In this document: positions 41,731-56,870 of the stretch, piece by piece
Layout of the letters: each line of letters starts with the position of its first letter
Position numbering within the stretch: the first letter of the stretch is position 1
Assembly: GCA_949283305.1 (NCBI GenBank)
Contig: CASDRU010000021.1
Span: 1 to 59,449, forward strand
Length of the DNA: 59,449 nucleotides
Direction of reading: 5' to 3'
Origin: an uncultured Spirochaetales bacterium
Lineage (GTDB): Bacteria > Spirochaetota > Spirochaetia > Sphaerochaetales > Sphaerochaetaceae
Notes under the pieces: generated by a model
What the model saw: only the letters and a program-made list of their open reading frames with translations
Databases searched by the model: none
What the model was told of the DNA's origin: nothing
Translations under genes and position numbers: made by a program

Positions 41731-43470
41731 ATGAACAGAGAAAGGGGTATAAGAAGGAAAATCATCGCGCTCTCGCTTGTGATCATGATGATTCTCCTTG
41801 CCGCCTTCTCCCTCCTTTTGATAAACATATCAAACAGAACATACAGGGAAAGATACATCAGCGACAGTTTTTCACAGCTTTCTGAATACATGATGAGACT
41901 TGACACGATAAAGGACAATATCGAGAAACTTCTTATCAGGGTAAGCATAAATGAGAATCTGAAGAGCAGCCTCAGAAGCGGCGATTCCCTTTCATGGTTT
42001 GACAGCTATGAGGAGATAAGCAGTTTCATCGAGGCAAACCCTTCATATTTTTACATAAACCGCATAGTTGTCTCAGACTCATCATTTACACGTTTTATTC
42101 AGGTCGGAAACGACATATCAAACTCGAAGCCGCTCAACATGGAAAGGGTCCTGAGAGAAATAGAGGCCTCAAGTGACCTGTTTTGCAATGCAAGCTACTC
42201 AGAGCTCTCATTTTCAGGGGACCTTGAGAGCAGGATGAGCATGGAGATAATAGACTACAACACAGGGCTCACTCTGGGCTATGTGACTGCAGCCATATCC
42301 GTTACAAAAGTCCTTGATGCAATGAGCGATACCAGCCAGCCTTATATATCATATGCGATATACACTGACGGAGCGGCATACACAGTTGGAGAAAACGGGG
42401 TCATCCGCTATGGCGAGAATGATTTTCTTCTGGACCCCAATTCCTGGCTTCTCTACTCCATTTCAGACAAAGAGAAAGTTTATAAGTACAACGGATTGCT
42501 GATTGAACAGCTGATTTCAGATGACGGATACTCCCTCCTTCTTTTGCTGAGCGAACCCAATCTCTTTGACGGCTTCACATCAATAAGCTACATAATCCCG
42601 ATGATGGTCTTTTCTGCCCTCCTGATAATCGCACTGATGGTTGCCTATCTTGACAGGATTATGTACCGCCCGGTAGTCCGGCTTGCGCAGAAAATCAGAA
42701 AGATAAGAATCGGAGATTACACGAGGGATGAGAGCATAGAGACCAGCGATGAGCTCGGGCTTGTCGGGAAGGGAATAAATGACCTATCAGAGGAAGTGAC
42801 TACTTTAATTGAGCGCCGCGTTGAGGATGAGAGAGCAAAAATCGAACTTGAGTATAAAATGCTTCAAAGTCAGATAAACCCGCATTTTCTCTACAACACT
42901 TTGAATGCGATAAAATGGATGGCAACGCTCCAGCATGCTGACGGTATAGCAGAAATGGTCCTCTCTCTTTCGCGCCTGATGAAGGTGACAAGCAAGGGCC
43001 AGGGAGGCATGATAAGCCTTGAAGAGGAACTCTCGTTCATTGATGACTACATGACAATCATGCGTTACCGCTACGGAAGCACAATTACCTACATCAAGAG
43101 GATTGAAAAAAGTGCTCTTGATATCAGGATTCCACGTTTCACACTCCAGCCCCTTGTTGAGAATGCCATATTCCATGGCCTTGAGCCAAAGGGAGAAGGA
43201 TGCGTTGCGATTGTTGCAAAATGCTTTCCTTCCCATGTGTCGGTCCTTGTTGCAGACAACGGAGTCGGCTTTGACACCAAGGCAAAGGGAGAGAGAAAAA
43301 GTGATGCAATGTTCCGCCATATAGGCATCGAGAATATAACAAAAAGGCTGAAATATGAGTATAATGGAAGAGACGTTCTATCTATATGGAGCAAGAAGGG
43401 TGTGGGCACATCCTGCATCCTGCACCTTGTAAGGAGTTACGATGATAAGCCGTGTGATAATTGCAGATGA
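41731..43470 (+). CDS. YesM-like sensor histidine kinase
   Basis: 579 residues. First helix IIALSLVIMMILLAAFSLLLI (about 12-32), a large extracytoplasmic sensor region of about 250 residues, a second helix near 285-308, a HAMP linker (MYRPVVRLAQKIRKIRIGDY), the His_kinase motif QSQINPHFLYNTLNAIKWMA, and an ATPase domain with NAIFHGLEPKGEG and VADNGVGFD. This is the LytS/YesM class found in polysaccharide loci. It overlaps its regulator gene by 29 bp. Confidence 0.93.
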   Translation: MNRERGIRRKIIALSLVIMMILLAAFSLLLINISNRTYRERYISDSFSQLSEYMMRLDTIKDNIEKLLIRVSINENLKSSLRSGDSLSWFDSYEEISSFIEANPSYFYINRIVVSDSSFTRFIQVGNDISNSKPLNMERVLREIEASSDLFCNASYSELSFSGDLESRMSMEIIDYNTGLTLGYVTAAISVTKVLDAMSDTSQPYISYAIYTDGAAYTVGENGVIRYGENDFLLDPNSWLLYSISDKEKVYKYNGLLIEQLISDDGYSLLLLLSEPNLFDGFTSISYIIPMMVFSALLIIALMVAYLDRIMYRPVVRLAQKIRKIRIGDYTRDESIETSDELGLVGKGINDLSEEVTTLIERRVEDERAKIELEYKMLQSQINPHFLYNTLNAIKWMATLQHADGIAEMVLSLSRLMKVTSKGQGGMISLEEELSFIDDYMTIMRYRYGSTITYIKRIEKSALDIRIPRFTLQPLVENAIFHGLEPKGEGCVAIVAKCFPSHVSVLVADNGVGFDTKAKGERKSDAMFRHIGIENITKRLKYEYNGRDVLSIWSKKGVGTSCILHLVRSYDDKPCDNCR

Positions 43471-45043
43471 TGAGCCTGTGGTCCTCGCAGGGCTCTCTTC
43501 CTTGATCGACTGGACAAAGGAAGGCTATGAGATTGTCGCAAAGGCAAGGAACGGTCAGGTTTTGCTTGACGAGATTGAACGTCTGAAGCCGGACATTGTC
43601 ATAACTGACATAAAGATGCCTGTAATGGATGGCTTTGATGTAATTGAAAGCCTGAAGGATGCAGAAGACAGGCCGAGCTTCATCCTGCTCACAAGTTTCG
43701 AGGAATTCGATTATGTGAAAAAGGCCATAGGCCTTGATGTCGTTGACTACATTGTGAAACTCGAGCTTAACAGAAATGATCTTTTAAAAGCGCTGGAGAA
43801 AGCAAAGAAGACACGGGAAGAAAAGAAGAAAATACTCTCTGATGACTTCAAAGGCTCTGAAAGCCTTATCGAGAGCTTCTTCTTCCGCCTGCTTTTCAAG
43901 CTCAATGATGACGAGGATATAAAGGCACAGGCAGAAAGCCTCGCTCTTGACATCTCTTTTTCAAAATACGTTGTCTCCTACACCAAAATCGAAATTTCTG
44001 AAAATATGGATAAAAGCCAGGCAGTGGCACTTTATAAATCAGCAATCACTCTCCTTTCAGATTCAATCAGCCGCTATATGAAAAATCACATAGTCCCTCT
44101 TGATCTTTCCCATGCGGCTGTGATCTTTGCTTTCAATGCTCAAGATGCAGGGGGTTACTACAACCAGATTTTCCAGGCTCTGAGATCTGCCCAGGAGAAT
44201 GTGAGATCCCTTTTCAGCCTCAGGGCCACATCATCTGTCGGGCCCGCTGTTGACAGCATCCTGCAGATTTCAAGCTCATTTCACAGAGCTAAAGTGCTGA
44301 GCACGAAGAAAACCGAAAGTGACGAGATTCTTATTTCCACACACAGGCAGAACGAGAGTTTTGAAGGAAATGATATAGATTTCTCTCAATACCGCGAGAG
44401 GATAAAGAAAGCATTTGAAGAGCTCAAGGGTGAGGAGATAGAACAGGTGCTCACTGATCTCATTGAGAACATGAGAAACAATGAAATACTGTTTGAAAGT
44501 GCAATGGACATCTCTTCAAACGTCCTTTATATGGCGGCCAACCTCATTCCTGAGTGCGAGGAGATGCTTGAGGAGATTTTCAGGCCCTACTCTGCATCAG
44601 GCTACCGCTCGCTTTACCTTGCCCGCAACAGCAGCGACTGCATCACTTTCCTGGAGCATCTGAAAAAAGGCCTTATAGAGGAACTGGAGAAAAGGCGACA
44701 GGATTACAGAATGATCCAGATAAACAAGATTCAGGGCTATATCATCGACAATATCTCAAGAAAGCTGAGCCTGAAAGAGGTGGCTGATCTCTTCGGCTAC
44801 AGCCAGGCATATCTTTCAAGCCTTTTTTCGCGCCTGTGCGGCATGAGTTTTGTCGATTATGTGACAAAGGAGAAGATAACAAGGGCAAAGCAGATGATGG
44901 CTACCAGCGATGCGAAGATCTACAGTGTTGCAACATCTCTTGGCTTTGAGTCCCCCTTCTACTTCTCGAAGGTGTTCAAGAAAGTAACAGGGGTTTCGCC
45001 CAGCGAATATATAGACAGCTTAGGAAATACAAAGGAGAAATGA
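43442..45043 (+). CDS. YesN-like response regulator with AraC-type DNA-binding domain
   Basis: 533 residues. Receiver with phosphoacceptor in ITDIKMPVMDGFD (Asp about 56); the usual KP after beta-5 is replaced by KLEL. A central region of about 270 residues, then an AraC helix-turn-helix pair (LKEVADLFGYSQAYLSSLF; IYSVATSLGFESPFYFSKVF). Strong ribosome site aaggag. Likely activates the divergent ABC operon and the downstream enzymes; its stop overlaps the start region of the GH88 gene. Confidence 0.93.
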   Translation: MISRVIIADDEPVVLAGLSSLIDWTKEGYEIVAKARNGQVLLDEIERLKPDIVITDIKMPVMDGFDVIESLKDAEDRPSFILLTSFEEFDYVKKAIGLDVVDYIVKLELNRNDLLKALEKAKKTREEKKKILSDDFKGSESLIESFFFRLLFKLNDDEDIKAQAESLALDISFSKYVVSYTKIEISENMDKSQAVALYKSAITLLSDSISRYMKNHIVPLDLSHAAVIFAFNAQDAGGYYNQIFQALRSAQENVRSLFSLRATSSVGPAVDSILQISSSFHRAKVLSTKKTESDEILISTHRQNESFEGNDIDFSQYRERIKKAFEELKGEEIEQVLTDLIENMRNNEILFESAMDISSNVLYMAANLIPECEEMLEEIFRPYSASGYRSLYLARNSSDCITFLEHLKKGLIEELEKRRQDYRMIQINKIQGYIIDNISRKLSLKEVADLFGYSQAYLSSLFSRLCGMSFVDYVTKEKITRAKQMMATSDAKIYSVATSLGFESPFYFSKVFKKVTGVSPSEYIDSLGNTKEK

Positions 45044-45045
45044 CT

Positions 45046-46212
45046 ATGGAAAAGAAACTCTTGAGTGAAAGCGAGAGAATCAGGGCACTGGATAATGCAT
45101 ATGCAATTATCAGGAGGAACTTAAAGGAATTCACCTACTTCTGTCAGAGCGAGGCGGGAAAGGATGGGTTCTATTACCCGATAGACAATGTTGAATGGAC
45201 AACAGGATTCTGGCCGGGAGAGCTCTGGCTCATATATGAGTACTCAAAGGATGAGGAGATAAAGAAGGTTGCCCAGATATTCACTGAAAGCTTCAGAAAG
45301 AGAATTGACAATAAGATTGCTGTTGATCATCACGACATGGGATTCCTTTATACCCCAAGCTGCGTATATGACTACATGCTCACACAAAGCGCCGGGGCAC
45401 GGGATGCCGCAATCAAAGCCGCTGACCAGCTTTTAAGAAGATGGCAGGAAAAAGGACAGTTCTTGCAGGCATGGGGCGCATTCGGAGCAAAAGAGAATTA
45501 CCGCTATATAATCGACTGCCTTTTAAATCTTCCGCTCCTTTATTGGGCAAGTGATGAAACGGGGGATGAGAAATACAGGAAAACTGCACTTCTTCATACT
45601 GCAACATGCATGGCAAACAGCTTCAGAAGCGACAATTCCACATTCCACACATTCTTCATGGACCCGGATACAGGAGCACCTGTAAGAGGAGAAACATGCC
45701 AGGGCTACAAGGCTGATTCTTCATGGGCACGCGGTCAGGCATGGGGTGTATACGGCATGGCACTCAGCTACCGCCACACAAAGGAGATGAAATACCTTGA
45801 CAAATTCGAGGCTGTACTTGACTATTTCCTCTCAAAGCTTCCTGAGGATAAGATTCCTTACTGGGATCTGATCTTCACTTCCGGCGATGAGCCAAGGGAT
45901 TCATCCAGCGCATCAATTGTCGCATGCGGATGCCTTGAGGCTGCAGAAAGCTATGAGAAGCTCAACATGTATGAAAAGAGCGTGAAATACAAGATGATCG
46001 CAAAAGAGCTTCTGAAGGCTGTTTATGACACATGCATGACCGACAAGGACGACATGAGCACAAACGGACTGATAAAGCATGGCACATACAGCAAGAAGAG
46101 CCCGTACAACACATGTACGGAAAACGGTGTCGATGAGCCTGTGTCCTGGGGAGACTATTACTGGCTCGAGGCCCTGATGAGACTTTCTGGAGAATGGAAA
46201 TGCATCTGGTAA
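45046..46212 (+). CDS. Unsaturated glucuronyl hydrolase (GH88)
   Basis: 388 residues, no signal peptide, so cytoplasmic. It hydrates and removes the unsaturated uronic acid from oligosaccharides made by polysaccharide lyases. The two catalytic aspartates expected for the family are at 97 (HHDMGFLYTPS) and 157 (YRYIIDCLLNLPLLYWAS), 60 apart as compared with 61 in the Bacillus enzyme. Further family motifs: VEWTTGFWPGELWL and DSSWARGQAWGVYG. ATG 45046 suits the aaggag site better than 45040. The sequence alone does not tell heparin- from chondroitin/hyaluronan-type specificity. Confidence 0.93.
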   Translation: MEKKLLSESERIRALDNAYAIIRRNLKEFTYFCQSEAGKDGFYYPIDNVEWTTGFWPGELWLIYEYSKDEEIKKVAQIFTESFRKRIDNKIAVDHHDMGFLYTPSCVYDYMLTQSAGARDAAIKAADQLLRRWQEKGQFLQAWGAFGAKENYRYIIDCLLNLPLLYWASDETGDEKYRKTALLHTATCMANSFRSDNSTFHTFFMDPDTGAPVRGETCQGYKADSSWARGQAWGVYGMALSYRHTKEMKYLDKFEAVLDYFLSKLPEDKIPYWDLIFTSGDEPRDSSSASIVACGCLEAAESYEKLNMYEKSVKYKMIAKELLKAVYDTCMTDKDDMSTNGLIKHGTYSKKSPYNTCTENGVDEPVSWGDYYWLEALMRLSGEWKCIW

Positions 46213-48008
46213 AAAATGCGCTGAAAGGCTGCAGAATCACACCTGCCTCATTTTCTGACTTCTCTTCTTCAAACCGCGCCTTGTATGAGGAAGTGGATGA
46301 GAAGACAAGAAGAGCTTATATAAAGAATGCATATTCGATGATGAAAAAAGGCTACAGCGAAATAAGCCTTCCTCTGTTCCGGGAGTTTCTTGAAACCGGG
46401 GACAGAAAGCATCATGAGACATTGTATTTTTTCAAGCGCAGGAAGCTCAGCGTCCTTACATGCGCTGAGGCTCTTGAGAATGAGGGAAGATTTACTTCTG
46501 AGATAGAAAACGGAATCTACAGCCTTTTAAGCGAGCCAGCATGGGTTATTCCGGCACATAACAGCTACATCCGTGACACACCTCAGCTTCCGACTCCCGA
46601 TATATCCCGTCCTGTTCTGGATCTCTTTGCATGCGAAAGCGGAGAAATACTTGCTCTTGTAAAAGAGGTCCTTGGAACAAAAATCGATCCGATTCTGAAA
46701 AAAGACATCGAATTTGAGCTCATGAGAAGGATAATCAAACCATATCTTGAGGACCATTTCTGGTGGATGGGAGGATGCGGAAAGCTTAATAACTGGAGCA
46801 TCTGGTGCACGCAGAACGTGCTGGTTGCTGCTCTTTCTCTTCCCCTTTCTGAAAAAGAGCTCTCACTTGTGATCAAAAAAGCTGTCAGAACAATAGACTT
46901 GTGGCTTGATGAATACAAAAAGGACGGATGCTGCGATGAAGGGGCATCTTATTATCATGCCGCAGGACTTGCCCTCTTTGGATGCCTCTATCTGCTGGAC
47001 AGAGTTACAAATGGAGCTATGACGCCGGTTTTTGAGAATGAGAAGATCAAAAACATCGCTTCATATATTGAGAAGGTGTTCGTCCAGGACGATATCTATC
47101 TCAATTTTGCTGACTGCTCACCGAAGGCAGGAAGGCTTTCAGCACGTGAATTCCTTTTTGCAGAGAAATGCAGGAATGAAGAGATGATGGCTCATGCGAG
47201 GAAGGACTACATAAAAGAGACATATAAGGGAGAGGAGGACAACAACTACAATCTCTTTTACATGCTTCTTGCCCTTTCTTCTGACAGGAAAATAAGAACA
47301 TATAAAGGGGAAAACAGAAGAAGGAAAGCTCTTTCTTTCACAGACTTTCCGTCAGTGGGCCTTACCATATACAGAGAAAAAGATATCACGCTTGCTGTAA
47401 AGAGCGGCTCAAATGACGACAGCCACAATCACAATGATGTGGGATCCATCACTCTTTATAAGGGCAAGAAACCCCTTTTAATAGACATAGGTGTAGAGAC
47501 TTACACAAAAAAGACATTCTCTCCTGAACGCTACACTCTCTTTCCGATGAGGAGCACTTATCATAACACGGTCAATTTTCCTCCCATCGAGCAGAAAGCA
47601 GGAAAGGAGTTTGGTGCAACAGAAAGAAAGGTGAGTCCGTCTTCCATCTCATTCCATCTTGAGAAGGCTTACAGTGATGAGAGAATCGAAAGCTACGTCA
47701 GGTCCGTATTCTTCAACCGCAAGGATGAAAGCATCAAGGTAAAGGATGAGACATCTTCATCGCTTCCTCCATGCCTGAGCATAATAACCCAGGAGGAGCC
47801 TGAAGTCAGTGAAAACAGGATCTCATTTCCTTCCTTTGAAATAAGTTTCACAGGTGCGGGAAAGATTGAGAAAGAAATCATTGAGATTTCCGACCAGAGA
47901 CTGATGAAGATGTGGAAAAGCCCGATTTACAGATGTCTGGTATCGTTTGAAAAAAATCTTGAATGGGTAATAACATATAGAGAACAAGGAGAAAAAAGTG
48001 AAAATTGA
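46200..48008 (+). CDS. Heparinase II/III-like polysaccharide lyase
   Basis: About 602 residues with an alpha/alpha toroid followed by a beta-sandwich. Candidate catalytic residues fit the family: Asn in GGCGKLNNWSIWC (199-200 counted from ATG 46194), Tyr in CDEGASYYHAAG (253-254) and His in DSHNHNDVGS (411-413). No signal peptide, so it would act in the cytoplasm on imported oligosaccharides as an oligosaccharide lyase. It overlaps the GH88 gene; both 46194 and 46200 are possible starts and 46200 has the better spaced ggag. The substrate is likely heparan sulfate, chondroitin or another uronate polymer. Confidence 0.88.
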   Translation: MHLVKNALKGCRITPASFSDFSSSNRALYEEVDEKTRRAYIKNAYSMMKKGYSEISLPLFREFLETGDRKHHETLYFFKRRKLSVLTCAEALENEGRFTSEIENGIYSLLSEPAWVIPAHNSYIRDTPQLPTPDISRPVLDLFACESGEILALVKEVLGTKIDPILKKDIEFELMRRIIKPYLEDHFWWMGGCGKLNNWSIWCTQNVLVAALSLPLSEKELSLVIKKAVRTIDLWLDEYKKDGCCDEGASYYHAAGLALFGCLYLLDRVTNGAMTPVFENEKIKNIASYIEKVFVQDDIYLNFADCSPKAGRLSAREFLFAEKCRNEEMMAHARKDYIKETYKGEEDNNYNLFYMLLALSSDRKIRTYKGENRRRKALSFTDFPSVGLTIYREKDITLAVKSGSNDDSHNHNDVGSITLYKGKKPLLIDIGVETYTKKTFSPERYTLFPMRSTYHNTVNFPPIEQKAGKEFGATERKVSPSSISFHLEKAYSDERIESYVRSVFFNRKDESIKVKDETSSSLPPCLSIITQEEPEVSENRISFPSFEISFTGAGKIEKEIIEISDQRLMKMWKSPIYRCLVSFEKNLEWVITYREQGEKSEN

Positions 48009-48771
48009 AATCATAAGAGAAGGATCTGTATACCGCTCTGCAGAGCAGGAAAACGAAGCGTACCTCGTATTTGAAGAAGAATACAAGGAAGGAGATGTGA
48101 TCAAAGTCACCGCAGAAGGAAAAGGCTTTGTGACAATCCAGCTTGATGCAGTCCTTGGAAGAAGCACAGTATACACTGACGGGAGTGCTTACAGCCTCAC
48201 TGTTCCGTTTGGACAGAAGCATGACTGCTACCATCCTGCCGCATTCAAGGGCGATATCCATTTCCTGTGGATAAGAAAGGCATACAGCTGGGAATATGGA
48301 TACAGGAATCTTGCTTTAAATCCATATGACAGCCACGAGAACAGCTCATTCTTCCCTCACAGCAAGGCAAATATCGAGACAAGAGGAGAAAGCGTGTTTG
48401 CTTCCCGCAACGCAATGGACGGCATAATTGCTGCAAACAACCACGGCAGGTGGCCATGGTCTAGCTGGGGAATCAACAGGGACCCGAAGGCTGAGATGTA
48501 TCTTGATTTCTGCCGGGAAGTGCTTGTTGACAGGATTGTGTTCTACAACCGTGCAGATTTCCCGCATGATGCATGGTGGGACAGCGCTGAAATCACATTC
48601 TCAGACGGAAGCACGGAAGTCTTCAATTTCGTCAAGAAAGACGGGGCCCAGAGCTTTGATATAAAGGAGAGGAAGATAAGCTCTCTTACACTCCATTCGC
48701 TTATCAAGGCAGATGACCCTTCCCCGTTCCCAGCTCTGATCCAGCTTGAGGTGTACGGAAAAGAATGCTAA
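47998..48771 (+). CDS. Putative carbohydrate-binding protein of the lyase operon
   Basis: 257 residues, GTG start with a perfect aaggag site inside the end of the lyase gene. No signal peptide. The C-terminal half has the look of an F5/8-type (discoidin) beta-sandwich: NLALNPYDSHENSSFFPHSK, RNAMDGIIAANNHGRWPWSS, DRIVFYNRADFPHDAWW, AEITFSDGSTEVF and a closing strand LIQLEVYGKEC. The tryptophan-rich loop could stack on sugar rings. No catalytic motif recognised. Its role beside two cytoplasmic saccharide enzymes is unknown. Confidence 0.65.
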   Translation: MKIEIIREGSVYRSAEQENEAYLVFEEEYKEGDVIKVTAEGKGFVTIQLDAVLGRSTVYTDGSAYSLTVPFGQKHDCYHPAAFKGDIHFLWIRKAYSWEYGYRNLALNPYDSHENSSFFPHSKANIETRGESVFASRNAMDGIIAANNHGRWPWSSWGINRDPKAEMYLDFCREVLVDRIVFYNRADFPHDAWWDSAEITFSDGSTEVFNFVKKDGAQSFDIKERKISSLTLHSLIKADDPSPFPALIQLEVYGKEC

Positions 48772-48790
48772 AGAGCATTCTGAGAATCAC

Positions 48791-48822
48791 GGGCATGGGT
48801 TTTCCTCATGCCCTTCTTTTTT
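48791..48822 (+). terminator. Terminator of the saccharide operon
   Basis: GGGCATG (48791-48797) pairs with CATGCCC (48807-48813), followed by TTCTTTTTT. Confidence 0.85.
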
Positions 48823-48930
48823 CATGAAATACAATGAGTTAGCATCAGATGCCTTACATTAAAAAGCTTACGTAATGTTTTAATATGTAATATATTCTCT
48901 TGTAATACAAGAAATTATTAAAATTTCATA

Positions 48931-48967
48931 TTGATTTTACCCTTATCTTCAGGTTATATTTTCCTAG
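48931..48967 (+). promoter_or_regulatory. Near-leaderless promoter of the second sugar ABC operon
   Basis: TTGATT (48931-48936), 18-bp spacer, TATATT (48955-48960), then seven bases (ttcctag) to ATG 48968, without a ribosome site. The 110 bp between the terminator and this promoter are AT-rich and show no other clear feature. Confidence 0.5.
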
Positions 48968-49771
48968 ATGACATATAACAGAAAGGCATACTTATATCTT
49001 CTTCCTTCCCTCACCCTGGCAACTGTTTTCTTCATCATGCCAGCACTTTCATCCGCATTCTTATCTTTTTTCTCACCAGGAGGTTATATAAGCCTCTTTA
49101 AAAACAGATATTTTCTTCTCGCTGTTAGAAACACGCTGACCTTCACTTTTTTATTCATTCCTATCAATACGCTTTTTCCCCTTGTCCTTGCATCTCTTAC
49201 AAGAAAGGATGACAGGATGTCTCTGTTTTTCAGGAACATCTATATCATTCCTCTTTCCTTCTCTCTTGCTCTCATTGCAGTTGTTTTCAGGAAGATGTTC
49301 TCAAACAGCGGGATAATAAGCCGTACTCTGGGCTTGGATTTCTCTTTTCTCGACAGCCCCTCCGGATCCTTTGCATCTCTTGTGCTTTTATCATTATTTC
49401 TTGATGTTGCAGTAAATTATATAATACTCTACTCATCTTTCAGATCCATTGACAAAAGCATTATAGAGATGGCTCTGATTGACGGTGCGGAAAAAAACCG
49501 GCTTTTTTTCTCAATAGAAATCCCCTTGATAAAGAAAGCCATCTTCCTTGTGCTCGCGCTTGGAATAAAGGATGCTCTTCTGATTTCCTCTCCCATAATG
49601 ATTTTGACATCAGGCGGTCCTTTCAGAAGCACGGAAAGCATAATGTTCTTTTATTATGTTGAAGCATTCAGCAACATGAATTATTCATATGCGAACTCAA
49701 TTTCAACTCTGATGCTCAGCCTCAGCATCTCATCATCGCTTTTTTTTGCGAAGAGGAGGAAACATGATTAA
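48968..49771 (+). CDS. Sugar ABC permease (UgpA/MalF type)
   Basis: 267 residues with six predicted helices; coupling loop EMALIDGAEKNRLFFSIEIPLI (EMALIDGAEK, then NRLFFSIEIPLI). Shorter than usual CUT1 MalF-type permeases (about 290-310). First gene of an operon with a UgpE-like permease and a UgpB-like binding protein; no ATPase gene is linked. Confidence 0.88.
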   Translation: MTYNRKAYLYLLPSLTLATVFFIMPALSSAFLSFFSPGGYISLFKNRYFLLAVRNTLTFTFLFIPINTLFPLVLASLTRKDDRMSLFFRNIYIIPLSFSLALIAVVFRKMFSNSGIISRTLGLDFSFLDSPSGSFASLVLLSLFLDVAVNYIILYSSFRSIDKSIIEMALIDGAEKNRLFFSIEIPLIKKAIFLVLALGIKDALLISSPIMILTSGGPFRSTESIMFFYYVEAFSNMNYSYANSISTLMLSLSISSSLFFAKRRKHD

Positions 49772-50561
49772 AAAGGCTCTCGTTGTATTCTTCGCCATCT
49801 TGCTCATTTTTCCACTGTTTCATGCACTCTGCCTTTCTCTTTTCTCTCCTTCTGACTTCTACTCCACTCCTGCCAGGTTCTTCCCATCAGCATTGCATTT
49901 TGAAAACTATAAGGCAATATTTGACTCCTCTTCTTTATTGAGACCTTTGATCAACACACTTTTTGTGGCAATGGCGACAGGAGCTCTGAGAATACTGATC
50001 ATACTTCCCGCATCCTATGCGATAAGCAATATGAATTTCCGTTTCAAGAAGGCTATATCGGCAATTCTGATTATCCCCATTTTAATTCCTCAGGATGTGG
50101 TTCTGCATTCTAATTACAGAATAACAGCCGCACTCTCTCTTCTTGATACGCTTTCAGGCATTATCGTCGCATGCATATACTCAGCATCTTCTTTCATAAT
50201 AATCCATCTCTCTCTTTCCTCTGTTCCAGGAGAACTGATTGGAGCAGGAAAAATCGACGGGGCTGATGATCATGTGATTCTCATAAAAATAATAGTCCCT
50301 CTCATCCGCAACACGATAGCTCTTATCTTCATCCAGGCTTTTTTAAACCAGTTCAACTCATATCTCTGGCCCCTGGCTGTATCTTCAAGCGAGGAAAGCA
50401 GGATGCTACAGATTGCAATAAACCAGCTTGGCTTTATCGAGGATGGAAATATGGGAGCAGTATTTGCCTCAATCACATTCATCTTCATTCTGAGCCTTTT
50501 TTTGATACTCAGCATGAGAAAAAGAATATTTTCAGCAACAGAAGAGAGTCTTCTGTTTTAA
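49764..50561 (+). CDS. Sugar ABC permease (UgpE/MalG type)
   Basis: 265 residues from ATG 49764 (ggagga upstream), overlapping the first permease by 8 bp. N-terminal helix VVFFAILLIFPLFHALCLSL, extracellular SPSDFYSTPARFFPSALHFE, and coupling loop GAGKIDGADDHVILIKIIVPLI (GAGKIDGADD, then HVILIKIIVPLI). The NQFNSYLWPLAV segment is typical of UgpE. Confidence 0.9.
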   Translation: MIKKALVVFFAILLIFPLFHALCLSLFSPSDFYSTPARFFPSALHFENYKAIFDSSSLLRPLINTLFVAMATGALRILIILPASYAISNMNFRFKKAISAILIIPILIPQDVVLHSNYRITAALSLLDTLSGIIVACIYSASSFIIIHLSLSSVPGELIGAGKIDGADDHVILIKIIVPLIRNTIALIFIQAFLNQFNSYLWPLAVSSSEESRMLQIAINQLGFIEDGNMGAVFASITFIFILSLFLILSMRKRIFSATEESLLF

Positions 50562-50573
50562 TAGGAGAAAAAA

Positions 50574-51845
50574 ATGAAAAAATCTGTATTGCTGTTTCTG
50601 TCATCACTTCTCTTTATCTCATCCATTTTTTCATTCGGAGCAAAAGAAGATGAGAATACAATAGAAATATGGCACTCAAACACGGGAGCAAAGGCAGCGG
50701 CATTTGAAAATATAGTTGATAATTTCAACAGCACGCACGAAGACCTGAAGATAAATGCTGTTTATCAGGGCAGTGCAAGCGATGTGCTTACAAAGGTGAA
50801 AAGTGCTGAATCAGCTGGAGGAAAAACTCTTCCAGACATTGCCATACTGGACGCTACAAGCGCGCTTGACATGTCAAGAAGCCGCTTTCTGGTGACTCCA
50901 GAAGAGCTTGAGATTGACACATCAGCACTCCTTGACAAGGCACTTTCAGAATATTCATATAAAGATGTGCATATAGGACTTCCGTTTTCTGCCTCAGCCC
51001 TTCTGATGTACTCTAATGCTTCACTCTATGAAGAAGCAGACCTTGTTATCCCATCCACTCTGGATGAGATGACAGAGTCAGGGAAAAAGATGAAGGAGAA
51101 AACCGGAGCATATATCCTTTCATCTGTCCCATCCACATACGAGATGATCACTTTCCTCTCCTCACAGAACGGCGGGTGCTACATAACCGATAACAGAAAC
51201 GGCCATGACGGAATACCGGAAAACGTGCTCTTTGACGATAACGGAACGTTCATTTTCTTTCTTGAAAAGTGGATAGAGCTTTCTGAAACAGGTGCTCTTA
51301 ACAGCATAACAAGCGGTGCTGAGGATGAGTTCCTGACGGGAAAGACCGCATCTGTTTTCCTCTCTTCATCCAATCTTGAGAACATGATAAATAAAATCAA
51401 CGGACGCTTTGTTCTCTCTGTCTCGCCCGCTCCGCTTGTGAATGAAAATGCAACTGGAGGAGAGAATATAGGAGGAGGATATCTTGCATTCTTTTCTCAA
51501 AAGGATGGTGTGAAAAAAGCAGCTGAGTACCTTATTAGTGAAGATGTACAGCTTTATTTTGCAATGAACACAGGCTATGTTCCCGTGAACAAAAGAGTAT
51601 ATGACAATCCTCAGTGGAAGGGTTTTTTAGAGGAGAATCCCCTTTTCAGTGTTGCTCCAGAGATAATATCAGAATCATCTGACAAGGTAATGGGACTCTG
51701 GATTCCTTCTGCCTACCAGATCTACCATTCCTTCCAGAAGACCATCAAGGATGCTGTGGATAAGAAGATAAATATCAAGGAGGCAGAAGAGATTATGGCA
51801 AAGGAGATTGAAAGTGCGCTCAATGAGTACAGAAGGATTAATTGA
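50574..51845 (+). CDS. UgpB-like substrate-binding protein
   Basis: 423 residues with signal peptide MKKSVLLFLSSLLFISSIFS ending before FGAKEDE; no lipobox cysteine, so likely a periplasmic form. The early IEIWHSNTGAKAAAFENIVD and NFNSTHEDLKINAVYQGS match glycerol-3-phosphate-binding UgpB. GGGYLAFFSQKDGVKKAAEYL and GYVPVNKRVYDNP are later family motifs. Glycerol-3-phosphate, glycerophosphodiesters or a sugar are possible ligands. Its last 8 bp overlap the convergent merR-type gene. Confidence 0.88.
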   Translation: MKKSVLLFLSSLLFISSIFSFGAKEDENTIEIWHSNTGAKAAAFENIVDNFNSTHEDLKINAVYQGSASDVLTKVKSAESAGGKTLPDIAILDATSALDMSRSRFLVTPEELEIDTSALLDKALSEYSYKDVHIGLPFSASALLMYSNASLYEEADLVIPSTLDEMTESGKKMKEKTGAYILSSVPSTYEMITFLSSQNGGCYITDNRNGHDGIPENVLFDDNGTFIFFLEKWIELSETGALNSITSGAEDEFLTGKTASVFLSSSNLENMINKINGRFVLSVSPAPLVNENATGGENIGGGYLAFFSQKDGVKKAAEYLISEDVQLYFAMNTGYVPVNKRVYDNPQWKGFLEENPLFSVAPEIISESSDKVMGLWIPSAYQIYHSFQKTIKDAVDKKINIKEAEEIMAKEIESALNEYRRIN

Positions 51846-52290
51846 TAGTCTCAGAAGAGTAGAATGTACACCTGTCTTTAAATGCGCATGTGCTGCACAG
51901 CTCTCCCGGGCAAGATGTGAAATTATCTTTTGCGCTCTCAAGCTGCTTTAGCCTCCAGGACAGCTCACTGATGTATATCTCTGTCTTCTTCTTTTTCTCA
52001 AGCGCCTGAGAAAGCTTTGCCCTGTATGCCTTAATCAGCTCTTCCCTTCTTCTGTTTCCGCTCTCATCTGCCTTTTTGAGCCTGATTACCTTCTTTATCT
52101 CGTCAATGGAAAATCCAAGGCTTCTGAGTTCGATGATTCTCTTCAAGATTATTATGTCCCTCTCAGTGTAGAATCTCTGGTTCCCACTGGATCTAGAGAC
52201 CTTAATCAGATTTTCCTCCTCATAATACCTTATTGTTCTGATCGTGAGGTTCAGCTTTGCCGCTATTTCCCCTATCTTGTATTTCTTCAT
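51838..52290 (-). CDS. MerR-family regulator with C-terminal cysteine cluster
   Basis: 150 residues. N-terminal winged helix (KIGEIAAKLNLTIRTIRYYE, then EENLIKVSRSSGNQRFYTER), a dimerisation coiled coil (about 80-120), and a cysteine tail with C127, C132, C135 and C141 (SCPGELCSTCAFKDRC). A four-cysteine cluster at this place recalls the metal or Fe-S sensor loops of SoxR and metal-sensing MerR proteins, but the spacing C-x4-C-x2-C-x5-C differs from SoxR. A -10-like TAAAAT lies 6 bases before the ATG. Confidence 0.88.
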   Translation of the reverse strand: MKKYKIGEIAAKLNLTIRTIRYYEEENLIKVSRSSGNQRFYTERDIIILKRIIELRSLGFSIDEIKKVIRLKKADESGNRRREELIKAYRAKLSQALEKKKKTEIYISELSWRLKQLESAKDNFTSCPGELCSTCAFKDRCTFYSSETIN

Positions 52291-52302
52291 AGCGCTATTT
52301 TA
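52291..52302 (-). promoter_or_regulatory. -10 element 6 bases before the MerR-type gene start
   Basis: Minus strand: TAAAAT (52302-52297), then six bases and ATG at 52290, with no ribosome site. It is preceded by TTTTCTGC as in the other ctgcTA-type -10 elements of this window. The upstream -35 zone overlaps the terminator hairpin at 52311-52339. Confidence 0.4.
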
Positions 52303-52306
52303 GCAG

Positions 52307-52339
52307 AAAAATCCTCCGGAGTGGACTTCTCCGGAGGAT
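52307..52339 (-). terminator. Terminator of the large lipoprotein gene
   Basis: ATCCTCCGGA (52311-52320) and TCCGGAGGAT (52330-52339) form a perfect 10-bp stem. The A-run at 52307-52311 is the T-run on the minus strand. Confidence 0.88.
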
Positions 52340-52344
52340 GATGA

Positions 52345-55300
52345 TCACCTTATGAGGATATTCACTTCCTCTGTGTGCACAAGATTATCTGAGTCATATA
52401 TAAGGATTTCAACTTTATGCAGACCATCAGATGCCTCTGGAGAAATCCTTACTTCAGCACCCTGCCCGTTCTGCATTGCCTCAACAGCATTGTTCCTGTT
52501 CTGCCAGCTGTAGCGGCTTGAGGTGTTGCTCAAAAGGAATGTATATCCGCTGTCGACATTTCCGATGTTTATCACTGGTGTGTTTACAGTAATATCGCTG
52601 TCAGCGCTTCTTACTTCAACTCTAACATTCCCGCTTAAAGGACCGATGTTGTTTACAGCCATGTCTATATATGCATATCCGCCCTTTTCAAGCTTCTCCT
52701 CACCCTTTGCACTAAGCCCGTAGACCTTTGATGAGAGGATTACCGGGTCAAAGCGCTCTGGACCGACTGTAAAAGTCTTCTCAAATGACTTTTCAAGTCC
52801 GCTGTTGTCCCTGAAAGTGAAGACCATTGTCACTTCCTCTCCAACAGGTGCATCCTTTGAAATCTTTATCCTGTTGTCATCAGAGCTTCTCAGGCTCCTG
52901 CTCCTTCCGCTTGAGATTGTCTCAAAGTCCCATACCTTTTCAAAGCCCGATGCATATTCGCTCTCACTTGATGTGTACATCTTCAGTCCGTTTATCGCAT
53001 TGACTCCTGTGTTTTCAGCCTCAATGCGGACTGCAAACTCCTTTCCTGGATATACTTTCTCAAAGCTGTCTTTATTGTAATAGCCAATTGATGCATCAAG
53101 TCCAAGCTCAGGCTTCTTTATCTCAAATGAAATTGGCACTTTCCACTCATCATAACCGTTTGTAAGCGTGAGTGTCAGCGATGCGGTCTTCCCTTCCTCA
53201 GCATCATTTGCAATGCGGAAGGAAAGGCAGTTGGCGCTCTTGTTTGAAAGAGTGCTGCTCATCGAAACTCTCCTAAGCTCCGTACTCTGGTTCTTTCCTG
53301 ATAGAATTGTCTTTATGTTGTTCCCGCTGATTGTGCCGTAATCGTAGCTGGATCTTGTGACAATCACGCCATCTGTGTTGCTTTCAAGCGTTGCCTTAAC
53401 ACTAACACTGCTCTTCCCGCTGTTCAAAACTGCGAAATCAAGATATGCAACCTCCCCGATTTCACATATTCCGTTTCCGTTTATGGAATCAATAAGCACG
53501 CTCTTTTCAACTGAGAGCTTCGAATCCGGCTTCCTGATTACAACAGGAATTGTTCTCTCCCACACATTGATTCCATCGCTCATGCTGACCTTCACATGGG
53601 CTACAGTATTCTCTGGAGCATCATCCTTCACTTCTATCTTCATGTTCGATGAGGAAGAGAGGCTGGAAGGACTTGAGCTCGTAGTTCTCCCTTTTGCGGC
53701 AAGAAGATAATAGCCTGCCCTGATTTCGCTGTTATATTTAAATGGTCCCTTGTTAGGAATATCTATATACTCGCTGTCTGTTGAGAGTGTCCATGAAAGG
53801 TTCCTTATTCTTGCCTCTCCCGAGTTGCGCAGAGCAAAGTCAAGGGATACTGTCTCCCCCGGGCTTGCAATGCCGTCATTGTTCTCATCAGGATCGAATA
53901 TCTGATAGCGCGTGATTACTGGATTGCTTCTGACACTCACAACGGGAAGCTCGATTTCTCCGCTCCAGCCCCCTTCCGGACATCCGATTCCGGTTGCAGT
54001 CCATTTGATGACGATTGGAGTTCCTGCTTCATAATCAGGGCTGACCTTTATCTCGATTCCTCTTTCCTTTGATGTGTTTGTCGTGTCTGCAGACGAATTG
54101 AAATAATATGTGCTTACACGTCGTCCTGAGTTCCAGTAGTCCCCGCTCCTGGTTGCCTGGGAAAGAATCTGCACTCCCTTTGTCTCGGTGGTGAATGTGA
54201 TTTTAGGATTTTTGAGCGCACTCTTTCCTGTGTTCTTGAAAAGATAACCTACTCTGATTGTCTCACCCGGGTTGATTGTCTTGTCTCCATCCCCGTCAGT
54301 CTCAAGGAAATCAAATTTTTCAAGAACTATGTTTGCATCCGTGTACTTTATCGGCAGCGTGATGCTGTCTGAGGAGCTTGCTCCGAGAGGAGTTGAAAGT
54401 GTGAATGTGAGCGTGATGTTCTTTGGCTCTGTTGAGCTTCCTACTGTGAACTTGTACCTTCCCTTGCCCTCTGCATTCAGGTATCTTGTTCCATTATTCT
54501 CACTTGAAGATGATCCGTAGAGCGAGACATACTTGCCCTCTTCAATGCTTGCATAGCTTGCTCTTCCTGTATTTATCTGAATCCCTTCATCGCTCGAGCT
54601 CATTATGCTTGTAAGATTATATGCGCTGTCAGAACCATCTTTGAGCTTCCAGAGCACATCAAGAGTAATGCTCTCTCCGGGATTGATTACTCCATCCTCA
54701 TTTGCCTCATCATGAATCTTGTAGCTTACAATCTCAGCATCAAAACCTGATTTTGCAACAGGAATGCTAACAACTTTTTGGGATGTGTATTCTCCTGCGC
54801 TGACCTTGACAAGGACATCAACAGCCTCGATATCCTCTGTTACAGGAACACTTATCTGGTAGCGGTTATCAGGCATGTTGCGTTCAAAATAACTGTCATT
54901 TATGTTATCTCTTGAGCGTACGACAGATGAGTCCTCTCCTGCCGCAATAAGCATCCTTGAAGAATAGACATAGTTCTCATAACTATCCGGAGAACCTATC
55001 TTTTCCAGCTTTGCTTCCTCACTCAGACACTCGACAGAGACCTTCAAGTCTGCACTGATCGTTCCTGTATTCATAATAAGAGGATAGAAATTGACGGTCT
55101 CACCGTAATTGAGCTTTCCGTTCTTATCCCCATTGAGGTCCTGGATTATATAATCCGTATCAAAACTGACATACTGGGCATAAAGTGTCTTATCAAGCAG
55201 GTCTAGAGCGCTTGCAGGATTATCTGAGTTGTACAGCTCAGAGTCTGAAGAATACCCGCTTTCTGTGCTGTATCCGAGGATTATATACCCCTCATCATCT

Positions 55301-56097
55301 GGAGACGGGATATCAATTAAATCAGATAGCTCTGCTTCGTATGTATGAACCTCGCTATCTCCGCCAATTCCATTGTAGCTGTAGCTTACAGGAATTGAGA
55401 TATTTACATCAAATGCATTTCCAAATGGGACAGAAAGAGGATAGCTGTCAAGATTGCTGATGCTCTCTCCGCTTTCGTTGCTGACATCCTTGATTATCAC
55501 GGAATCAGAAAGGTAGCCATATATGTCGCTTTCTATATCGACATACCTTCCCTCTATCTCTGAGCGGGAAAGGGAGCGTGTGACTTCCTCTGAACCAGCT
55601 TTATATATGACAGGAACATCGATTGAGAAATAATCATCACCCCATGAAAGAGCATTCCATGAATCTTCTGCATCCAGGAATCTTGTAATGTAGTTTTCAA
55701 ATTCTGTGGAAAGATTATTTATTCTGTATTCATAAAGCGCATCAATATCCGCATTGTACTTATCTCTGGCCCTGTCCATCTCCTCTTCAAGTTTCTCACC
55801 CTCAGATGCAACTTTTTCAAACTCGCTCCAGCTTGAGACCTTCTCCAGCTTCGCCTCAAGGTTTTCTTCTTTTCTGTCAAGCTGGTTTCTCTTGTTCTGA
55901 TAGCTCCTGTCCAGCTTTTCAATCTCGCTGTAAAAAGAGACATTATATTTCTCGACCATGCTCTGGATTTTTTCCAGAGCCTCTCCTTTTGTAAGGCTTA
56001 CCAGGATTTTATCAAACTCTTCAGATGCATTGAAACCGCATGATGAGAGTACTAAAAGGCACAGCAGCCCTAAAAGCAAAAACAATTTCTTCCTCAT
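52345..56097 (-). CDS. Large lipoprotein with tandem CARDB-like domains and Ca-loop motifs
   Basis: 1250 residues. Lipobox LVLSSC with Cys20; a charged helical, coiled-coil region (about 35-130, YQNKRNQLDRKEENLEAKLE); a domain with a Flg_new/InlB-B-like patch near 262-312 (GYIILGYSTESG, LDKTLYAQYV). Then seven beta-sandwich repeats follow. Five open with EF-hand-like calcium loops: LNGDKNGKLNYGE (321), DEANEDGVINPGE (463), DGDGDKTINPGE (601), DPDENNDGIASPGE (735), SINGNGICEIGE (871). Two more are degenerate, near 1008 (NKDSFEKVYPGKE) and 1127. Each is followed by a strand and an xNTG/xNSG turn as in CARDB/DUF11-type adhesion domains. Spacing is about 135-143 residues. Likely surface or periplasmic; own terminator. 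The role is unknown. Confidence 0.85.
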   Translation of the reverse strand: MRKKLFLLLGLLCLLVLSSCGFNASEEFDKILVSLTKGEALEKIQSMVEKYNVSFYSEIEKLDRSYQNKRNQLDRKEENLEAKLEKVSSWSEFEKVASEGEKLEEEMDRARDKYNADIDALYEYRINNLSTEFENYITRFLDAEDSWNALSWGDDYFSIDVPVIYKAGSEEVTRSLSRSEIEGRYVDIESDIYGYLSDSVIIKDVSNESGESISNLDSYPLSVPFGNAFDVNISIPVSYSYNGIGGDSEVHTYEAELSDLIDIPSPDDEGYIILGYSTESGYSSDSELYNSDNPASALDLLDKTLYAQYVSFDTDYIIQDLNGDKNGKLNYGETVNFYPLIMNTGTISADLKVSVECLSEEAKLEKIGSPDSYENYVYSSRMLIAAGEDSSVVRSRDNINDSYFERNMPDNRYQISVPVTEDIEAVDVLVKVSAGEYTSQKVVSIPVAKSGFDAEIVSYKIHDEANEDGVINPGESITLDVLWKLKDGSDSAYNLTSIMSSSDEGIQINTGRASYASIEEGKYVSLYGSSSSENNGTRYLNAEGKGRYKFTVGSSTEPKNITLTFTLSTPLGASSSDSITLPIKYTDANIVLEKFDFLETDGDGDKTINPGETIRVGYLFKNTGKSALKNPKITFTTETKGVQILSQATRSGDYWNSGRRVSTYYFNSSADTTNTSKERGIEIKVSPDYEAGTPIVIKWTATGIGCPEGGWSGEIELPVVSVRSNPVITRYQIFDPDENNDGIASPGETVSLDFALRNSGEARIRNLSWTLSTDSEYIDIPNKGPFKYNSEIRAGYYLLAAKGRTTSSSPSSLSSSSNMKIEVKDDAPENTVAHVKVSMSDGINVWERTIPVVIRKPDSKLSVEKSVLIDSINGNGICEIGEVAYLDFAVLNSGKSSVSVKATLESNTDGVIVTRSSYDYGTISGNNIKTILSGKNQSTELRRVSMSSTLSNKSANCLSFRIANDAEEGKTASLTLTLTNGYDEWKVPISFEIKKPELGLDASIGYYNKDSFEKVYPGKEFAVRIEAENTGVNAINGLKMYTSSESEYASGFEKVWDFETISSGRSRSLRSSDDNRIKISKDAPVGEEVTMVFTFRDNSGLEKSFEKTFTVGPERFDPVILSSKVYGLSAKGEEKLEKGGYAYIDMAVNNIGPLSGNVRVEVRSADSDITVNTPVINIGNVDSGYTFLLSNTSSRYSWQNRNNAVEAMQNGQGAEVRISPEASDGLHKVEILIYDSDNLVHTEEVNILIR

Positions 56098-56222
56098 AAA
56101 ATGCTCCTGAAAAAAATTATTTCACATGAATTGGGCATCAGCAAGTGAGAATAAATAATTAGAAAAAACAATAATCTGAATTCATTTTTGTCCAACCTGC
56201 TGAAAGAATCTTCTTGTAAGGT

Positions 56223-56870
56223 ATGGAAGCATGTGAAAAGAAAGAAGACGCAAGAGAAAAAATCGGAAGACTCGGAATAAGGGCATTAAGCGACAAGGAG
56301 CTTTTAATGCTGCTGATCCAGAACGGAAGCAGGACAAGGAGTCTTGAGGAGATAAGCTCTGATGTGCTTGCACTCCTTGACAGAAAATCATCGATAATGT
56401 TCTCAGAGCTCAGTGCGATAAACGGACTGTCGAATGCAAAAGCATCAATCATCGCAGCCTCTTTAGAACTTGGAAGAAGAAGGATTGCAAAGCAGAGCGT
56501 GCAGATAAAGAGTCCTGAGGATGTTTATAACTCAATAAGACATTACTCGGACAGAAGCCAGGAGCATCTTATAGTAGTTGCTTTAAACGGTGCTCATGAG
56601 ATTATATACACAGAGACCGTTACAGTCGGCCTTGTAAATATGACGATAGTGCACCCCAGAGAAGTCTTCTCAAATGCGATTGAGAAAAGAGCCAGTGCGA
56701 TAATAATTGCTCATAACCATCCATCAGGCCGTCTTAATCCAAGCAGTGAGGATATCGACATGACAAGGAAAATCGTGAAAGCCGGTTCCATTTTGGGAAT
56801 TTCTGTTCTCGATCACCTCATAATCTCGAGTGCTGGCTATCTGAGCTTTAAGGCTAAAGGCCTGATTTAG
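56223..56870 (+). CDS. radC: RadC family protein (JAB/MPN domain)
   Basis: 215 residues. N-terminal helix-hairpin-helix part (SAINGLSNAKASIIAASLEL) and a JAMM metalloprotease-like domain with HNHPSGRLNPSSEDID, the conserved HxHPSG-x8-D zinc motif. Despite its name the family has no proven role in repair. Start at 56223 lacks a clear ribosome site. It marks the border between the chromosome-like genes to the left and the accessory stretch to the right; RadC homologues are often found near mobile DNA. Confidence 0.92.
   Translation: MEACEKKEDAREKIGRLGIRALSDKELLMLLIQNGSRTRSLEEISSDVLALLDRKSSIMFSELSAINGLSNAKASIIAASLELGRRRIAKQSVQIKSPEDVYNSIRHYSDRSQEHLIVVALNGAHEIIYTETVTVGLVNMTIVHPREVFSNAIEKRASAIIIAHNHPSGRLNPSSEDIDMTRKIVKAGSILGISVLDHLIISSAGYLSFKAKGLI

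Follow-up and report, generated by a model that had tools for sequence, protein, structure and literature searches.

A spirochaete lipoprotein with seven tandem Ig-like repeats and candidate calcium loops in five of them

Ca2+ rigidifies the tandem immunoglobulin (Ig)-like repeats of MpAFP (PMC4083281), and domains of the Leptospira Lig lipoproteins, LigA and LigB, themselves spirochaete proteins with tandem Ig-like domains, are reported to bind Ca2+ (PMC3012076). EF-hand-like loops also occur outside EF-hand proteins as the linear motif Dx[DN]xDG, and, in an example given in a survey of that motif, a DxDxDG loop inserted between two beta strands of CD2 suffices for Ca2+ binding (PMC3123361). 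Here, we analyze a lipoprotein gene of a gut spirochaete in a 59,449-nucleotide stretch of DNA (“the window”; contig CASDRU010000021.1, assembly GCA_949283305.1) from an uncultured Spirochaetales bacterium of the family Sphaerochaetaceae. Among named genomes, the nearest is that of Candidatus Ornithospirochaeta avicola, a metagenome-assembled spirochaete genome with an ortholog that is 93% identical. The protein contains seven tandem repeats, R1 to R7, the first five of which bear an EF-hand-like loop. On balance, we lean toward a lipid-anchored rod or scaffold in which Ca2+ would stabilize the proximal domains and their joints and which would present R6 and R7.

The gene is a single minus-strand open reading frame (ORF) encoding exactly the 1,250-residue lipoprotein that an earlier reading of the letters alone (the sequence-only reading) had described, with a signal peptide and an LSSC lipobox ending in Cys20; similar N termini occur in four orthologs (L025, L021, L022, and L023). 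When units are anchored on the G preceding the loop Glu, the anchors fall at residues 332, 474, 611, 747, 881, 1018, and 1139, and their spacing (142, 137, 136, 134, 137, and 121) bears out the regular period of about 137 residues noted previously. A profile search recovers all seven repeats in order (E values: R1, 1e-7; R2 to R5, 3e-35 to 9e-43; R6, 4e-5; R7, 3e-8), the independent matches being R1, R6, and R7, as the profile was built from loop-bearing, R2-R5-like units of this protein and its relatives. Self-similarity is clear among the middle repeats (R3/R4, z = 12.5; R4/R5, z = 13.1; R2/R4, z = 8.0), where five of six pairs from R2 to R5 outscore all 300 shuffles; R1, R6, and R7 are weak in pairwise comparison. 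Two orthologs lack R4, which is what one would expect if the number of repeats mainly determines length.

The loop pattern occurs once per repeat in R1 to R5, at residues 322, 464, 601, 737, and 871, and nowhere else in the protein. A shuffled protein is expected to contain it 0.002 to 0.02 times, depending on strictness, compared with the five observed, for patterns that were defined after the loops had been seen. The consensus of the 12-residue loop is x-G-[ND]-x-D-G-x-[ILV]-N-P-G-E, with an acidic residue just upstream, and loops 1 to 5 match EF-hand-loop spacing at positions 3, 5, 6, 8, 9, and 12. The five DxDxDG-like loops of the sequence-only reading thus stand as a pattern, but a strict Asp at position 1 is found only in R3 and R4; the two loops that it called degenerate, those of R6 and R7, are so. 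Repeat alignment, one of the checks proposed with that reading, shows that the EF-hand-like ligand spacing is conserved in R2 to R5 across orthologs. Among 22 R2-R5 loops from the window and orthologs in five genomes of the genus, counts that share descent and are not independent (numbering as in PMC3123361), N or D occupies position 3 in all 22, D or N occupies position 5 in all 22 (D in 20), G is at position 6 in 19, I, V, or L is at position 8 in 20, and N, S, or E is at position 9 in all 22. Glu at position 12 is invariant (22/22) and would supply the later acidic ligand of the Dx[DN]xDG motif. An acid at −2, −1, or 0 accompanies every one of these loops and none of the 12 R6-R7 loops. This joint retention of ligand positions is informative because the repeats are only ~20% identical to one another.

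We modeled R4-R5 with AlphaFold, using a shallow alignment of six rows made up of repeats from the window protein and its close ortholog. The model predicts two beta-sandwich domains, and its Foldseek and VIA-align matches are Ig-like domains of many proteins (single-domain Z, 9 to 12; ~2 to 2.6 Å over 96 to 110 residues), in keeping with the beta-sandwich repeats foreseen from the sequence. The loop is predicted to lie between strands A (726-734 and 861-870) and B (749-758 and 883-892), so that it forms the A-B turn, about 12 to 14 residues inside each domain, and not a domain boundary as had been proposed. Strand-loop-strand is thus the predicted context, and the helix-loop-helix of an EF-hand protein is not seen. 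The linker from the last strand of R4 to strand A of R5 is only 6 residues in the model, a length compatible with a rod.

Relationships by family point to the same fold class. In the viral library, the top fold matches bear the names DUF11 and DUF7932, in agreement with a DUF7932 match at the start of R2 (28.7 bits against a cut-off of 27, over 26 residues only), with an above-cut-off CARDB match on the corresponding domain of a relative that has the same repeats (L070), and with similarity to part of the MXAN_5808 family. None of the Pfam models extends over a whole repeat; the DUF7932 match takes in only ~25 of 130 positions around the loop. A PDB sequence search with the whole protein found nothing; a PDB profile search gave weak matches, to designed Ig proteins, a biofilm-associated surface protein, and a scaffoldin, which we judge to be fold-level or compositional.

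Domains with Ig-type topology have their A-B turn at the C-terminal pole. A loop in that turn would consequently face the next domain, near the joint between domains n and n+1, and with this register the five joints from R1/R2 to R5/R6 would have a loop, the R6/R7 joint would have none, and a loop in R7 would guard nothing. We propose that the protein is an envelope lipoprotein of an Ornithospirochaeta-type spirochaete, consisting of a lipid anchor, a fast-evolving helical spacer, an InlB-repeat-like segment, and seven CARDB/DUF11-type Ig-like domains. The A-B turn of R1 to R5, together with the upstream acid, would most likely be a Ca2+ site, and, because the turn is at the C-terminal pole, a site in domain n would make that domain stiffer as well as its joint with domain n+1. 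A stiff proximal rod with about five such joints could then present the conserved, loop-less R6-R7 pair, and the role of the protein would probably be display or scaffolding, either of that pair or of a partner.

In every ortholog, R6 retains (V/I)YPG[EK] but not most of the ligands, and R7 ends in GG; the loss is therefore older than the split between these genomes. Mean pairwise identity is 40.8% for R6 and 40.5% for R7, close to that of R3 (42.1%) and R5 (43.4%), compared with 26.0% for R1, and purifying selection is strong across all repeats (for the whole gene, dN is 0.037 and dS is 0.353 against the 93% identical ortholog). The suggestion that loss of the loop marks a flexible tip does not agree with this conservation, nor with the lack of any joint after R7; a conserved terminal pair is more readily explained as a functional head than as a tip that is decaying or flexible.

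Several observations weigh against a calcium-stiffened rod. Position 1, a direct ligand in EF hands, is Asp in only 5 of the 22 R2-R5 loops (D, E, or N in 10), and the R5 loop of the window has just Asn at positions 3 and 5, the weakest ligand set of the five. The R1 ligands are kept in the window protein and its close ortholog, partly in the G033 ortholog, and nowhere else, having been lost in three orthologs. The R4-R5 model, built from six rows, is of medium confidence (mean pLDDT, 73; pTM, 0.58; loop blocks, about 59 to 68) and is a poor guide to how the domains are oriented relative to each other. A spirochaete lipoprotein may also reside in the periplasm, which bears on any surface exposure. 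The idea of an upstream acid as ligand is without precedent in the survey, which states that in 16 folds no extra ligand precedes the Dx[DN]xDG motif (PMC3123361).

The strongest competitor to the rod, unlikely as we consider it, is that the loops bind Ca2+ but stabilize only their own domains, leaving the joints unlocked and the protein a flexible string of Ca2+-stable beads. The modeled loop, which lies within the domain and connects strand A to strand B, is placed as this would predict. Acids in the linkers occur at the loop-less R6/R7 joint too and so do not track the loops; as candidate joint ligands they are non-discriminating, and we rejected them. Dx[DN]xDG loops are, moreover, often listed as structural or folding sites (PMC3123361). 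Against purely internal sites, the modeled turn would lie at the pole that faces the next domain, and the repeats without loops are precisely the two C-terminal ones, where at most one joint remains.

A different role, quite unlikely in our estimation and overlapping with the other explanations, would be to serve, in the periplasm or at the surface, as a scaffold that acts together with caspase-like peptidases and LPP20-type lipoproteins, in which case the repeats would be peptidase-accessory domains; this reading is about the partner and not about the loops. The lipoprotein is present in 7 of 48 genomes of the genus (6 of the 24 of good quality), and, in a sample of 296 genomes from across the phylum, 9 have its repeat unit. 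In a genome of the same family (G056, contig 1; L024:5329-10170), six repeat units are fused to a Peptidase_C14 caspase domain (E = 2e-34) that retains the AGHG and DACR motifs, within a single lipoprotein that also has a coiled coil and whose gene is in a run with those of two LPP20 proteins, one DUF4384 protein, and further lipoproteins; the run may represent an envelope caspase system of this family of spirochaetes. LPP20 genes also adjoin two homologs within the genus, the best NCBIfam match of the window protein is the MXAN_5808 serine peptidase family (TIGR03900), and a subtilisin (L069) carries the repeat domain. Pfam and NCBIfam searches found no peptidase domain in the window protein, however; its neighbors are MerR and RadC, no LPP20 match was found in its own genome (G000), and the caspase-like gene there is on another contig. 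What is shared is limited to the repeats, and repeats of this kind are attached to many proteins. Other carriers of the unit include a lipoprotein-like protein that has fn3-like repeats (L026), a CarboxypepD_reg protein (L067), and helical proteins of 430 and 987 residues that carry one unit or several (L066, L068, and L070).

Two further features of these genomes were observed. LPP20-type lipoproteins recur in a cluster with a 731- to 746-residue exported protein and an exported protein of ~190 residues (L071:4810-11565, G020 contig 9; L072:517-4705, G033; L020, G015). The caspase-like match in G000 is a separate small lipoprotein on contig 6 (L073:5346-6329), beside a 173-residue exported protein.

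That the loops bind no metal, being a conserved Gly/Asn/Pro-rich CARDB/DUF11 turn (the PGE part) with acids kept for solubility or hydrogen bonding, is very improbable: R6 does keep PGE without ligands, position 1 is not conserved, and pGe often occurs ahead of strand B in folds of this class, but positions 3, 5, 9, and 12 and the upstream acid are retained together in R2 to R5, while R6 has PGE and has lost most of the rest, so that the ligand pattern is under selection separately from the turn.

Returning to the calcium-stiffened rod, a broader proposal, which we regard as speculative and doubtful, is that the CARDB/DUF11-type A-B turn is an undescribed EF-hand-like Ca2+ site, in which an acid at the end of strand A replaces the Asp of position 1, and that tandem copies form joint-locking rods in envelope proteins of spirochaetes and other bacteria. 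If so, the site would be a natural counterpart of the Ca2+ loop engineered into the Ig-like protein CD2, a simple rule (an acid plus GNxDGxINPGE in the A-B turn) would predict the Ca2+ dependence of many unannotated CARDB/DUF11-like domains, and there would be a handle on uncharacterized envelope proteins of gut spirochaetes; if not, the protein would be an ordinary repetitive lipoprotein.

Between the anchor and the repeats (Table 1), a long helical region agrees with the coiled-coil near the lipid anchor that had been proposed as a stalk, but the AlphaFold model gives two helices with a break, which possibly fold back as a hairpin, and leaves the stalk unproven. That model has a mean pLDDT of 51 (~75 to 93 for residues 52 to 121 only) and is usable for the helices alone. 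The region shows hydrophobic heptad bias and weak Pfam and NCBIfam matches to coiled-coil families, and it evolves fastest (dN of 0.146 against the sister species, compared with 0.037 for the whole gene), which is consistent with a spacer role. In the G033 ortholog (L018:3495-7123, contig 77), the gene is split within this region into ORFs of 1,065 and 139 aa, reflecting either a broken gene or an assembly error. For the putative InlB-like segment, nearly the full PF09479 profile aligns to residues 237 to 308 (E = 0.063), at 13.8 bits, short of the 27-bit cut-off, and AlphaFold confidence is low there.

The gene stands alone between a MerR-type regulator gene (51838-52290, same strand) and radC (from 56223, opposite strand). 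Leftward of the MerR gene are sugar-binding-type transporter, GH88, and heparinase-like genes, and positions 41731 to 51845 form a polysaccharide-use locus (histidine kinase, AraC response regulator, GH88, heparinase-like, ABC permeases, and binding protein). The gap to radC is ~126 bp (window 52300-56223), and the sister genome has two extra genes there (L025:6877-12700), which is an insertion or deletion difference. Orthologs elsewhere have other surroundings, namely, rpoD-like, PPDK-like, and tsaD-like genes (G014) or a pyruvate-oxidoreductase-like gene (G033 and G015), as named from the starts of the proteins. GC content is 0.443 for the gene and 0.437 for the window, so composition gives no hint of transfer. 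No homolog was found in the viral contigs and phages searched, and the plasmid matches were two weak ones from Sinorhizobium, one of them annotated as DUF11, so that neither a phage nor a plasmid origin has support.

Table 1. Features of the lipoprotein gene, in window coordinates with residue numbers in parentheses
Feature	Position	Strand	Basis
Lipoprotein gene, single ORF, 1,250 aa	52345..56097	-	Translation
Signal peptide and lipobox LSSC (17-20), lipid Cys20	56038..56097	-	Sequence
Two long helices (37-85 and 90-147), break at 86-89, coiled-coil-like	55657..55989	-	AlphaFold, heptad bias, weak Pfam/NCBIfam matches
InlB B-repeat-like (Flg_new/List_Bact_rpt) segment (237-308), putative	55174..55389	-	PF09479, below cut-off
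Repeat R1 (308-449)	54751..55176	-	Anchors and profile
Repeat R2 (450-586)	54340..54750	-	Anchors and profile; DUF7932 match at start
Repeat R3 (587-722)	53932..54339	-	Anchors and profile
Repeat R4 (723-856), absent from two orthologs	53530..53931	-	Anchors, profile, and model
Repeat R5 (857-993)	53119..53529	-	Anchors, profile, and model
Repeat R6 (994-1114), shorter, 121 aa	52756..53118	-	Anchors and profile
Repeat R7 (1115-1250), C-terminal domain	52348..52755	-	Anchors and profile
Loop 1 NGDKNGKLNYGE (322-333)	55099..55134	-	Ligands not conserved in distant orthologs
Loop 2 EANEDGVINPGE (464-475)	54673..54708	-	Ortholog alignment
Loop 3 DGDGDKTINPGE (601-612)	54262..54297	-	Ortholog alignment
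Loop 4 DENNDGIASPGE (737-748)	53854..53889	-	Alignment and model, between strands A and B
Loop 5 SINGNGICEIGE (871-882)	53452..53487	-	Alignment and model, between strands A and B
Degenerate loop 6 NKDSFEKVYPGK (1008-1019)	53041..53076	-	Ortholog alignment
Degenerate loop 7 SAKGEEKLEKGG (1129-1140)	52678..52713	-	Ortholog alignment

Compared with described families, the repeats resemble CARDB, DUF11, NPCBM_assoc (NEW3), and DUF7932 (PF07705, PF01345, PF10633, and PF25560) in fold and in an N-terminal loop-PGE-strand-N(T/S)G signature. Profile positions ~631 to 744 of the MXAN_5808 serine peptidase family are similar to R2 and, in orthologs, to R5 (E = 1e-10 to 1e-12); the window protein is nevertheless not a member, scoring 43.3 bits against a cut-off of 660.95 and matching only positions 631 to 738. 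The loops share the spacing of the Dx[DN]xDG motif (3, 5, 6, 8, 9, and 12), and of its Asp/Asn at 1, 3, and 5 and Gly at 6, R2 to R5 supply the last three, whereas the Asp of position 1 is not conserved and an acid precedes the motif; the main table of the survey does not list an Ig-like A-B turn among its contexts (PMC3123361). The Lig proteins are at the surface and are built of Big domains, another family, no Big model having matched the window protein, for which location is putative. The proposed rod is like region II of MpAFP and similar extenders of RTX adhesins, in which tandem Ig-like repeats with Ca2+ at the joints form a rod, but in MpAFP the ion at the joint is bound by a C-terminal Asp together with residues from the following repeat (PMC4083281), in contrast to the candidate site in the A-B turn. 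The window protein also has a lipid anchor instead of type I secretion, and the kinship with RTX proteins suggested by the sequence-only reading is not borne out, no GGxGxDxUx nonapeptide repeats having been found in it. Calcium-stiffened Ig-like arrays and Ca2+-binding spirochaete Ig-like proteins therefore have precedents, the idea is not new in kind, and the window protein is probably a Ca2+-stabilized rod or scaffold of a generally familiar sort and not a new type of system. What appears to be new is that a CARDB/DUF11-type domain is combined with an EF-hand-like A-B turn whose first ligand is displaced, a combination for which the PDB sequence and profile searches found no solved relative.

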